Source: Mucilaginibacter sp.
Lineage (GTDB): Bacteria; Bacteroidota; Bacteroidia; Sphingobacteriales; Sphingobacteriaceae
Direction: 5' to 3'
DNA: 38,282 nucleotides
NCBI GenBank assembly: GCA_028287865.1
Contig: JAQBOU010000122.1
Location: 1 to 38,282, forward strand
Position numbers and translations under genes: made by a program. Below are positions 5,809-17,500 of the stretch, piece after piece (the first letter of the stretch is position 1; each line of letters opens with the position of its first letter). The notes under the pieces are model-generated. The model was given only the letters and a program-made list of their open reading frames with translations. It was not told the origin of the DNA and made no database searches.

Positions 5809-7591
5809 TTATAATACCACTGGCCTTTTCAAATACTTCCTGCTGCGATATGTGGGTTACCGGTGCATAACGGGCCATTTCGCATAAATCAAGCGTATCC
5901 AGCAGCTGGCTGATCAGCTGTTCATCAACCGACCGGGCTCTTAAAGCCGATGCGATAGTTTCCCTGTTTAAGTTTGCATATAAAATATTCAGCTTATCGC
6001 TGAGGTAGCCATACAGTCCTTTAAATACATCTTCATAAAACGCTTTCGTATTTTTTGCAAGCAGCTGCTGCTGCGCGCTGGCCAGGTGTTTGGCTGCCTG
6101 TTTGCCTGCCCTCCTGCTTTTTACTTTAACTATATCGCTGTTTTCCCTGCGTATTTTGTTACGGTAGGCAAAAGCTCCCAAACACACCAGCGGTCCAAAA
6201 GCTATCAACAAATAATATCCCGGTGAACCGAAAAAATGATCACCCTGAATGCCTAATCCGCTATCATTGGTTTTGATATACCTGATATCTTTATCCAGCA
6301 ATTTTACATCCTGTTTATCCGCATCCGGGAAGGCGGTGACATTCTGTTCATTGGTGCCTTTATCTACTTTTATAAGAAATGCCTTGGTTGATAAGCTTAC
6401 ATACCTGCCGGTAGCAGGATTAAAATACGAGAATACATAGGGGTCGATGGTATAATTGCCCTGATGCCGGGGAATTAGCAGGTAATTATAGATCCTGCTG
6501 CCGGTGGCGCCGTTATCAGTGTCTGCAACTGTATCGATAACTTTTGGGTCGTATTTTTCAAAATCAGCAGGGAAATTTATTTTCAGGGGCACAAACAATT
6601 TAATATTACCCGAACCCGTGATTTTAACTTTATAATTTAACGCTTCGTTAGCCTTTAACTCAGTTTTATCTGTTGATGCCTGGATACTGAAGTTACCAAC
6701 CGCTCCTGTAAAACCGGCAGGTTTCCCCGCATCCGGCAATGGTTTTACATGAATAGTTACGGGGGCGCTTCTAACCTTAAATTTTTCCTCCTTAAACGAT
6801 CCGAAAAATTGATCCATAACATCCTGTGCAGGTGCCGGTACTCTCACCAAAAAGGTAAACCCTAAAGGATCAATGGTTAAATTTCCGGAATGCTCCGGGA
6901 ATAAAATGGTTTTTTTTACGTCGGTAACATTGTATTTCTGGCCTTTGTAAGTTTCCACACTCCATTGAACCTGCTGCTGCAGTTGTTTAACATCTTCGCT
7001 GTAAAAACCATTTAAATCCGGCAGTTTATCTACCTGGCTTTGCTCAATTCCTATACGGGTGTACAACCTGTAATTTACTGTTATCTGTTGGCCCTGATAC
7101 ACATTGGTTTTATCTACCACCGCCCTTATAAATAATGATTTGGCTAGGTCTGCCGGGTTACCTTCCATAACAGTATTATCGGGCGCGTTGCGGCCGGCGG
7201 CATTCTGTGGAACCGGCCGCCCCTTTACTACTTTAATTTTAATGGGATTGGCGGTGAACCTGCGGCCATTAACCACTATGGTGGCCGGGCCAATAGTAAA
7301 CTCACCTTCTTTCACAGCCATTAATATGAAGCTGTAGGAGTTACTTACAGAGGAATTCCCGTTAATGGATTCCATGCTGGTTGATACATTGGGGCCAGAC
7401 AATACCTGGAAGCTGCCAAAGGTTGGCGGTGTAAACCCGTCTGCATTGGCATTTACCAAAAAGGTAATTTCAAATTGCTCCCCGGTACCTACCTCGGTTT
7501 TACTTGCTGATGCAGTAAATTTTATACCATCAGCAAATAAAAGGTTTGCACAAAGAAGCAAAAATGTTAATATGTAGTGCCTTTTATTCAT
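5786..7591 (-). CDS. batD: BatD family protein (aerotolerance operon)
   Basis: Signal peptide, FTASASKTEVGTGEQFEITFLVNAN domain, central TM; operon position. Confidence 0.88.
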   Translation of the reverse strand: MNKRHYILTFLLLCANLLFADGIKFTASASKTEVGTGEQFEITFLVNANADGFTPPTFGSFQVLSGPNVSTSMESINGNSSVSNSYSFILMAVKEGEFTIGPATIVVNGRRFTANPIKIKVVKGRPVPQNAAGRNAPDNTVMEGNPADLAKSLFIRAVVDKTNVYQGQQITVNYRLYTRIGIEQSQVDKLPDLNGFYSEDVKQLQQQVQWSVETYKGQKYNVTDVKKTILFPEHSGNLTIDPLGFTFLVRVPAPAQDVMDQFFGSFKEEKFKVRSAPVTIHVKPLPDAGKPAGFTGAVGNFSIQASTDKTELKANEALNYKVKITGSGNIKLFVPLKINFPADFEKYDPKVIDTVADTDNGATGSRIYNYLLIPRHQGNYTIDPYVFSYFNPATGRYVSLSTKAFLIKVDKGTNEQNVTAFPDADKQDVKLLDKDIRYIKTNDSGLGIQGDHFFGSPGYYLLIAFGPLVCLGAFAYRNKIRRENSDIVKVKSRRAGKQAAKHLASAQQQLLAKNTKAFYEDVFKGLYGYLSDKLNILYANLNRETIASALRARSVDEQLISQLLDTLDLCEMARYAPVTHISQQEVFEKASGIINDIESKI

Positions 7592-13473: not shown

Positions 13474-13741
13474 GAAGTATTTTTATTTGGAGTGGCAAAA
13501 TTAAACAGATGATCATTTTTTTGCCAAAGAAAAGTGAAGCATAAATGTTAAATTTTGTTAAATCCGATCGCTGACTAAATAATTTTTAAATGTCTTATTG
13601 ATAATTTGTGAAATTAACAATAAAAAACATAAAGCTCCTTTGAAGTTATTTAAAAAGCTCCTGTAAAATTTAAGGATCAGAAAAACAAGCAATAATATAA
13701 TTCAAATCTTTAAATGAGCGTTCGGAAAAAATGAGACAAAA

Positions 13742-13781
13742 AAAAGTGGCTCCGATCTTTCGGGGCCACTTTTATTTTTTT
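13742..13781 (-). terminator. Strong Rho-independent terminator (potentially bidirectional)
   Basis: AAAAGTGGCTCCG-ATCTTT-CGGGGCCACTTTT: 13-bp stem with one G-U, flanked by A/T tracts on both sides. Confidence 0.85.
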
Positions 13782-13802
13782 AAGTGGATTTAAGGCTTAA
13801 TA

Positions 13803-13880
13803 TTAAGCTCTTTTCCTTGCAGGAACAAGAGGTAATACGATACAAGCGATTAAAGCGGCAACTTCTAATACGATTAACAT
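13803..13880 (-). CDS. 25-aa single-TM microprotein MLIVLEVAALIACIVLPLVPARKRA
   Basis: Not in the supplied ORF track. Minus-strand ATG...TAA, hydrophobic helix followed by basic RKR tail, A-rich upstream leader, strong terminator ~22 nt downstream. Confidence 0.65.
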   Translation of the reverse strand: MLIVLEVAALIACIVLPLVPARKRA

Positions 13881-14384
13881 GACTTTAGTTTTTTAAGTAA
13901 TTATTGAACATTAAATTTTGTCAGAAAAACTAACCCTTTTATTTCTGTTAAACCTAATCTTTCAATTGAGGCTTAGGATTTAAGATTTGTATTTCCTGTA
14001 CTGGGTTAGGCTAAAAACATGCCATAACGTATTTTTTAATAAAAATCGTTTTTGGGTTGAAAAATTGCTAAAATTAAAATTTACTTAATTTTGAAATTCA
14101 CTTTAAAAAGTTGAAGATTTTCTGTTTTTGGTTTCAATTTTATGACTATTACCTGAAAATCTTGTTTAAAAAACCTAATAAATCCTGTTTGGGGGATATT
14201 TTCAGATAATTAATGAAAATAGATTGAGTTTTTGCAGATATAATCGCCGTTATCATAAAAATAAAAAACAAGCGAGTTTATAAATCTTTAAGGACATTTT
14301 TTTAGAGCTGGCAGTAGTGGTTCTTTTTAATTAAATTCTTTTTTGAGCCCTTTTTATTTTAATTATCATTTGAAATTAAATTTT

Positions 14385-14547
14385 TGACAATTTGTCATAC
14401 ATGCTGACAAGTGGCAAAATTCGATAAAAATGACTGCAAAAAAATACTGCCAAACCACTGACAAAATGACAAACGATTAAATTCATAGGTAAAATACCTG
14501 ATTCTAGCCTTGTGCCAATTTCATTGACGAATCAAAATTGGTTGTCA
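14385..14547. promoter_or_regulatory. Cluster of TGACAA half-sites including palindrome TGACAA-T-TTGTCA
   Basis: TGACAA at 14385, 14405, 14459, 14467; TTGTCA at 14392 and 14542. Confidence 0.35.
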
Positions 14548-14900
14548 ATATTGCTATTTCTGTAAAATTTGGTATTTAAAAGGAGTTATCGTTAAGCGGT
14601 ATATCAGTTTCAGGGCAAAATATTGCCAACTTAATTATTTAACAAATTGAACTTGAGAGTTGAAGTCGAAAGCAGCAGCTTAAGGAAGTCAAAAAATCTG
14701 TAATAAGGTTTAGGTTTGTTTGATACTTAAATCTAAGTTAAACTACAATAGTTTTATTATGGCTTAACTATTAATCTGATTGAAAGGTAAGAATGTATTT
14801 ATGTTTTTTAAAATATATTATACCAATACCGTTATTGTATATGTGAACGTCGCTTTTCGAGGTATATAGTTCAATATATGTCTACTTTTTGATATCAGTC

Positions 14901-15032
14901 TTAACCACAATTGTTCCTCGCGTTCCCCTCAATTTCTACATCAATTATTTTCCCATCAAATTTAGCAGTTGATATGGATATGCCTACCCAATCTGATGCG
15001 GGTGTTTTTTGAATATAGCTGAAAGCTCTAAG
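14901..15032 (-). pseudogene. Possible decayed coding remnant
   Basis: Minus-strand open stretch LRAFSYIQKTPASDWVGISISTAKFDGKIIDVEIEGNARNNCG* lacking a start codon; coding-like composition. Confidence 0.25.
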
Positions 15033-15144
15033 TTATTTCTCCTTACATAAATCTGACATGGATAAGTTACCGTAGATGTAATCAAAATGTAAAATTAAAT
15101 TCCTGGTTAAGTAATCCATCTTCTAACAATATAAATCAACTGCT

Positions 15145-15573
15145 ATGAAAAAAAACACATTCAAAAAAATCCTGGTTTACACGCTATCCAGTATTTTATT
15201 ATTGGTAATCGTGCTGTGCGTTCACATTTATATGGTCTATCGCCCCAAAGCACCCACTGCATCTTCAAGGGTAATGGCCCGTATAGATATTAAACAACCG
15301 ATAAATGATGCTGACGCCAATAAGATAAAAGTATTTATGGCCCATGAAAAGGGCGTAGACCATTACCTGGTGAATCCTGAAACCAGTATCGTTGTTTTCA
15401 CATTTCTACCCATAAAAACCACCGGGAATCGGGTTGTCGATGATTTTAAAGCAAGTTTCAGCTTCAAAGCCGACCGCTTTGTGCCAACAACAAACGATTT
15501 AAAAAGCAGCTGCCCTGTAGCCGCTTCATCTTACACTTATAAAGTTTATCAATTTATTTCTCAAATAATTTAA
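15145..15573 (+). CDS. Hypothetical membrane-anchored protein with HMA-like ferredoxin-fold domain
   Basis: N-terminal TM helix; MARIDIKQPINDADANKIKVFMAHEKGVDHYLVNPETSIVVFTFLP resembles the beta-alpha-beta pattern of heavy-metal-associated domains but has no CxxC. Confidence 0.6.
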   Translation: MKKNTFKKILVYTLSSILLLVIVLCVHIYMVYRPKAPTASSRVMARIDIKQPINDADANKIKVFMAHEKGVDHYLVNPETSIVVFTFLPIKTTGNRVVDDFKASFSFKADRFVPTTNDLKSSCPVAASSYTYKVYQFISQII

Positions 15574-15587
15574 CCACAAAAATCAAT

Positions 15588-16154
15588 ATGAAAAAGTTAA
15601 CATTCCTCCCCATTGCCTTTTTAATTGCACTATCTGTACTGCTTATAGATGCATGCAGTAAAAAAGCCTCCAGCAACCCAACACCAACAACAGGAGCCAC
15701 CCTATATGATTCATTAGGCGGAACTGTGCTGGTTACCGATCCAACACATTCTGGTGCGATGATTGAAAAAGGGCGCTTAGCAATACGAAACGTTATAGAC
15801 AGTACAATATTTGTTATTGCTGCCGATTCAAAAATCAACGGTCACTTCACTGTATTACTTGCTGAAGTTACTAAAGGTGATCTTTCTGGTTTTACAGACC
15901 TGAGCGAAAATTTAACAACTTTTGTTGCGGGTGCTACGGGCGCTAAAGATTATATTTATATAGGATTAAATATGACCGATGCCCACAACCCTGCGACTAA
16001 CCCGCGGATGAACGGGAAAGCCACCAGTGCAGATTTCGATGCTTTTGTTAATGACCTTGTAGCGGGCGCCAACAAAAATAAAGTACCAGCCAATTTAATT
16101 AATTCGATTGGCAAAATTGTTCAAACTTTAAGGGGCCAGGTGGTTCAGAAATAA
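15588..16154 (+). CDS. Lipoprotein with divergent group I truncated-haemoglobin-like domain
   Basis: Lipobox-like LLIDAC; TLYDSLGG start typical of 2/2 globins; AADSKINGHF; putative proximal His in MTDAHNP; C-terminal ADFDAFVNDLVAGANKNKVPANLINSIGKIVQTLR helix pattern. Confidence 0.65.
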   Translation: MKKLTFLPIAFLIALSVLLIDACSKKASSNPTPTTGATLYDSLGGTVLVTDPTHSGAMIEKGRLAIRNVIDSTIFVIAADSKINGHFTVLLAEVTKGDLSGFTDLSENLTTFVAGATGAKDYIYIGLNMTDAHNPATNPRMNGKATSADFDAFVNDLVAGANKNKVPANLINSIGKIVQTLRGQVVQK

Positions 16155-16178
16155 GTTTAAATTTACAATAGACAGGCG

Positions 16179-16206
16179 GCCCGGAATGAACGTTCCGGGC
16201 TTTTTT
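16179..16206 (+). terminator. Rho-independent terminator
   Basis: GCCCGGAA-TGAACG-TTCCGGGC followed by TTTTTT. Confidence 0.9.
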
Positions 16207-16282: not shown

Positions 16283-16819
16283 ATGCATACAAATCAATCC
16301 ATTAATATTTCTAATTTATTTATAGCCGGTATCAATTATAAAAAAACAGATGCTGCTACAAGGGGGTTGTTTGCTATTAATTCCGATCAGTATGGAAACA
16401 TCCTGAAGCTAGCTCCATCCTGCAATATAGATTCATTATTTATACTATCTACCTGTAACCGCACTGAAATATACGGCTTTGCCGAACGGCCTGCGCAACT
16501 GATAAATTTATTATGTACACAAACCAAAGGCGATAGCCAAACTTTCACAAGCCTTGCCTATATTAAACAAGGCAATAATGCAATTGAACATTTGTTTAAC
16601 GTCGGCGCCGGGTTAGATTCTCAACTTTTGGGTGACTATGAAATTATCGGACAACTGAAACAGGCAGTAAAATTTTCAAAAGAACAAAATTTCATTAATT
16701 GCTTTTTAGAGCGTTTATTTAACAACGTACTGCAGGCATCCAAAACCATAAAAAACGAAACGCAACTAAGCGGCGGAACTGTCTCAGTTTCGTTTGCGGC
16801 GATACAGTATATTAAATAG
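16283..16819 (+). CDS. hemA: Glutamyl-tRNA reductase, N-terminal half (ends at in-frame TAG)
   Basis: LSTCNRTEIYGF catalytic Cys motif; GAGLDSQLLGDYEIIGQLK; GGTVSVSFAAIQYIK*. Confidence 0.85.
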   Translation: MHTNQSINISNLFIAGINYKKTDAATRGLFAINSDQYGNILKLAPSCNIDSLFILSTCNRTEIYGFAERPAQLINLLCTQTKGDSQTFTSLAYIKQGNNAIEHLFNVGAGLDSQLLGDYEIIGQLKQAVKFSKEQNFINCFLERLFNNVLQASKTIKNETQLSGGTVSVSFAAIQYIK

Positions 16820-16828
16820 CATATTAAA

Positions 16829-17500
16829 ATGGATGCCAGGAAAAAAATATTGATGATTGGCACCGGTAAAATAGGCCGCAATACCTGCAAAAATGTAGTG
16901 GACTATTTAAATACCACCAATATCACACTTATTAACCGTTCAGAAAAAAAGGCTATTGAGCTGGCTTCAGAGTTGAATTTAAAATATGCCCCGTTAAGTG
17001 ACCTCGCTAAGCAAATTAAATCGGCAGATATTATTCTGGCTGCCACCAATGCCAATGAACCCATTATTTTAAAAAAATACCTTGAAAACAATGGCGGGAA
17101 GCTAATTATCGACCTTTCTGTCCCCTATAATGTTGAAGCCGGAGTAGGTGAACTCCCCAATATTACTGTAGTAAACGTTGATGCACTTTCAAAATTGAAA
17201 GATGAAGCTTTACATAAACGTGAAGAGGAGGCCCCAAAGGCAAAGAAAATAATTGAACAGCAAATAGCAGGTTTTATGGAATGGTATACCATGCGTAAAA
17301 ATGCACCTGCCTTAAATGCTATTAAAGCTAAGTTGATTGCGATTTACGCCCAGCATCCGAAGGTATTAGCCAACACTATCGGTTTTTGTCCGGTTATGCA
17401 AGCCCAGCGGGTAATAAATGGTATCGCTAATAAAATGCGTACACAAAACCGGCAAGGCTGCCAATATATTGAAGCGATTAATGAGTTTATGTCCCTATAA
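16829..17500 (+). CDS. hemA: Glutamyl-tRNA reductase, NADPH-binding and dimerisation half, same frame as preceding ORF
   Basis: KILMIGTGKIGRNTCKNVVDYL Rossmann motif; start offset from 16283 is 546 nt (divisible by 3); intervening codons TAG CAT ATT AAA. Confidence 0.85.
   Translation: MDARKKILMIGTGKIGRNTCKNVVDYLNTTNITLINRSEKKAIELASELNLKYAPLSDLAKQIKSADIILAATNANEPIILKKYLENNGGKLIIDLSVPYNVEAGVGELPNITVVNVDALSKLKDEALHKREEEAPKAKKIIEQQIAGFMEWYTMRKNAPALNAIKAKLIAIYAQHPKVLANTIGFCPVMQAQRVINGIANKMRTQNRQGCQYIEAINEFMSL

Follow-up and report, generated by a model that had tools for sequence, protein, structure and literature searches.

A 406-codon frame that encodes a glutamyl-tRNA reductase (GluTR) was found at positions 16283-17500 (+ strand) of the window, the whole 38,282-nucleotide stretch of Mucilaginibacter sp. 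DNA analysed here. This frame, hereafter hemA2, is broken once by a stop codon. The question raised by the locus was whether the stop marks a gene that has recently been lost, an enzyme made in two pieces, a codon that is read through, or an error in the assembled sequence.

By translation, the frame contained one in-frame TAG at codon 179 (16817..16819, + strand) and a terminal TAA. The N-terminal part, which ends at the TAG (16283..16819, + strand), matched the catalytic domain profile GlutR_N with 131.4 bits, and the C-terminal part (16829..17500, + strand) matched the NADPH-binding and dimerisation domains (Shikimate_DH, 92.6 bits; GlutR_dimer, 24.9 bits). When read through the TAG, the frame scored 262.8 bits against the TIGR01035 hemA model, the cut-off of which is 209.55 bits. 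The motifs STCNRTE, HLF and GLDSQLLGD were located at residues 56, 103 and 110, respectively. With both open reading frames matched and a single internal stop, the first-pass annotation was right in its coordinates and motifs and in describing one GluTR interrupted by the TAG only.

The frame was compared with known HemA proteins (TIGR01035; PF05201, PF01488 and PF00745; solved structures 1gpj and 4n7r). All three domains are encoded in the same order, and the catalytic Cys motif, His103 and the NADPH glycine motif are retained; hemA2 differs in being interrupted at codon 179 and in lying apart from the haem operon as an additional copy. In the alignment with 1gpj and 4n7r, the TAG was placed shortly before the glycine motif of the NADPH-binding Rossmann domain. 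The S-T-C-N-R active-site cysteine and the catalytic N-terminal domain therefore precede the stop, but the NADPH-binding and dimerisation domains, which a HemA carries in the same chain, are encoded in frame behind it. An origin of the TAG from CAG (Gln) or AAG (Lys) had been suggested. Both residues occur in relatives at this position, as do Ser and Arg, but Glu is the most frequent there, and neither of the suggested ancestors is the likeliest. Altogether, 133 of the 404 hemA2 codons lie one substitution away from a stop.

A search of the source genome, which is a 4.03 Mb draft in 266 contigs and 85% complete, revealed an intact housekeeping hemA on another contig (C103). It is followed by what we take, by sequence recognition, to be a hemC-hemD fusion and hemB. 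Hence, hemA2 is a divergent second copy of hemA located outside the haem operon and not the housekeeping gene. With an intact hemA on C103, hemA2 is in that sense dispensable, and most genomes of the genus lack the type. The earlier suggestion of a second copy away from the haem operon was thus borne out, as was that of a dispensable paralogue insofar as an intact housekeeping hemA exists.

Further, the distribution of the hemA2 type was determined. Within the same genus, 35 of the 150 genomes searched contained the type, in a total of 41 copies, with 48-72% identity to the window copy, as against about 26-31% for the housekeeping type. Among 301 genomes of the family, the type was confined to one of 25 genera and was absent from the other 24 genera sampled, yet other families of the same class commonly had it. 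In a tree built by a quick method with no bootstrap, the hemA2 copies of the genus all grouped together (support 99) in a clade that lay amid Chitinophagaceae-type GluTRs and far from the clade of the housekeeping hemA of the genus. The closest relatives outside the genus were housekeeping hemA genes of Chitinophagaceae (a Segetibacter metagenome-assembled genome, L036, and Cnuella takakiae, L038), which belong to the same clade with about 55-61% identity. In the named Chitinophagaceae, hemA is uninterrupted and heads a hemA-hemC-hemD-hemE run, whereas hemA2 is an extra copy here. This nesting indicates that hemA2 was probably acquired laterally, with patchy retention and duplication afterwards. 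No paper on a second GluTR in Bacteroidota was found in the literature.

The stop was unique to the window copy. The comparison of orthologues proposed earlier was run across the genus, and none of the other 40 copies in the clade contained the TAG or any other stop within the body of the gene. No other split at codon 179 was seen in the sample, which covered other species. An independent frameshift was found at about codon 298 in the hemA2 of a single-contig genome (G009; L068, around position 7307), which suggests that loss of hemA2 is tolerated within the genus.

The remainder of the window copy appeared intact. Of 109 near-invariant residues, 107 were kept, both departures were conservative, and uninterrupted genes departed at 0 to 7 of these columns. 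The ratio of dN in the C-terminal part to that in the N-terminal part was 1.54, against 1.46 +/- 0.22 in intact pairs; the region behind the TAG has evolved no faster than the region before it. The first reading had noted no other visible decay, and these values agree with it. In a neutral simulation, in which indels were ignored, the chance of so little decay fell from 7% at a divergence of 3% to 2% at one of 4%, and under this model the stop would be younger than about 3-4% divergence. So little decay means that the stop is young, or not real, or tolerated.

The most economical explanation, and the one we consider probable, is a recent nonsense mutation, or a segregating allele, in a dispensable and probably laterally acquired hemA paralogue. 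It was proposed that one nonsense substitution broke hemA2 very recently, the gene being redundant beside the intact housekeeping hemA. Translation would halt after the catalytic domain, and the product would be devoid of the NADPH-binding and dimerisation domains; judging from the GluTR fold, such a product should therefore be inactive. The stop may be a fixed lesion or one allele in the sampled population. As in recent nonsense pseudogenes of bacteria, a single lesion is combined with redundancy and an otherwise intact frame, but the loss of function is one that we infer. Of the options listed in the first-pass annotation, this one was favoured by the intact hemA elsewhere, the uniqueness of the stop and the lack of other decay. 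Some features count against a nonsense lesion. The stop lies exactly at the domain boundary and 9 nt ahead of an ATG, as would also be expected of a split gene; decay is wholly absent from the C-terminal part; and the genome is an incomplete draft.

The main rival is an uninterrupted hemA2 in which the TAG arose through faulty assembly or sequencing, or through a consensus base drawn from a mixed population. The draft state of the genome is consistent with an error, as are the full constraint on the rest of the gene and the lack of a stop in close orthologues. The lesion is, however, a substitution outside any homopolymer, and no interruption was visible in the other long open reading frames of the window, so that an error was judged unlikely.

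A functional two-piece GluTR was considered still less likely. In such a case the C-terminal part would be made separately by reinitiation at the possible restart ATG at 16829 (codon 183), and the two parts would assemble. The boundary between the domains is clean, the ATG follows closely behind the TAG after an A-rich leader, and the C-terminal part is as constrained as the N-terminal one, though a split of recent origin might not yet have led to decay, and a recent nonsense mutation accounts for the constraint equally well. However, about 7% of hemA2 positions have an in-frame ATG within four codons, and the ATG at 16829 is therefore weak evidence; codon 183 is not conserved, being mostly Ile in relatives. 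No orthologue was seen split at this place, and the function would be redundant given the intact hemA. The more specific version, a two-polypeptide GluTR expressed by termination-reinitiation, with the gene observed in the act of splitting, seems slightly less probable again. The unconserved ATG and the frequency of chance ATGs left the split-enzyme option of the first reading with no positive support.

Readthrough was also among the options proposed earlier; either a suppressor or the local context would then permit some full-length enzyme to be made. It was regarded as the most improbable reading: the frame is open behind the TAG, but TAG is an ordinary stop nearby, ending three neighbouring genes, and a CUA anticodon was absent from the 24 typed tRNAs (with 3 partial matches and about 15% of the genome unseen), so that neither this option nor an alternative code or suppressor tRNA gained positive support.

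Other interrupted hemA genes were also considered. Several matches had been flagged as recurrent internal stops, but those inspected stop at the natural C-terminus. Two further candidates were explained otherwise, by a frameshift (L148) and by an assembly gap (L067), and a flagged TGA among the phylum matches (G449) did not correspond to any stop within the aligned part. The frameshifted gene (L148, 2805-3972, genome G786) is disrupted near residues 116-124; this genome is a draft, the frameshift may be an error, and no second hemA above the cut-off was among its listed matches. Separately, a third divergent and shorter hemA-like gene of about 340 amino acids with 28% identity was observed in G112 (L086, 5027-6049), and similarly short, low-identity matches were present in G102, G111 and G118.

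The neighbourhood of hemA2 was found to be recurrent. In about 14-15 loci the order was a small membrane protein, a globin-like lipoprotein, a terminator-like hairpin and hemA2. In the window, the first is a small membrane-anchored protein with no Pfam match (15145..15573, + strand; a conserved neighbour at 14 loci). It is followed by a lipoprotein that has distant similarity to group 1 truncated haemoglobin and a conserved His133 (15588..16154, + strand; 15 loci). The globin-like neighbour reported earlier is real, and the genus keeps it at about 15 loci, although its truncated haemoglobin match is weak (cyanoglobin, E=0.0025); its predicted fold was of low confidence (pLDDT 49), and no fold search was based on it. 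An intrinsic-terminator-like hairpin was detected by scan between the lipoprotein gene and hemA2 (16178..16201, + strand), and similar G+C-rich hairpins were seen by eye at the same place in most relatives (intergenic sequences of 15 loci). This hairpin points to a separate promoter for hemA2. Other hemA2 copies adjoin what we take, from sequence recognition, to be genes for universal-stress proteins, a P-type ATPase, acetate kinase/phosphotransacetylase or cytochrome bd. Further upstream in the window, the stretch of about 1.7 kb (13474-15144) that separates the small membrane protein gene from a moxR-like gene was without a substantial open reading frame; it is partly of 28% GC, contains a strong terminator-like hairpin at 13742 and gave no Rfam match.

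Two motifs, both pattern matches and hence candidate regulatory sites only, were enriched upstream of hemA2 copies. TGAT-N4-ATCA preceded 13 of 39 copies, where 0.4 would be expected, and 9-11 of the 39 were preceded by an 11-bp-spaced direct repeat, where under 1 would be. The former was also present in 30 of 251 upstream regions of other open reading frames at the same loci, and part of its enrichment therefore belongs to the neighbourhood. Neither motif was found upstream of the window copy, and this is uninformative about decay, since 16 of the 39 copies are without both. The direct repeat resembles a Pho box, but this reading was not supported, no such repeat being found at 12 pstC loci searched together with 1.5 kb of flanking sequence. 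In four of the six genomes with two hemA2 copies (L052/L053, L054/L055, L056/L057 and L080/L081), one copy was preceded by an 11-bp-spaced TGACA direct repeat and the other by an FNR-like TGAT-N4-ATCA palindrome, which suggests that the regulation of the paired copies may be split.

The stop in hemA2 would thus be an ordinary case of a redundant gene recently lost. More useful than the stop itself is that the genus appears repeatedly to keep, duplicate and lose an extra GluTR of the Chitinophagaceae type. These copies often adjoin a globin-like lipoprotein gene or genes of the stress and low-oxygen type and have distinct upstream motifs, and they may offer a testable case of conditional control over the first committed step of haem synthesis.
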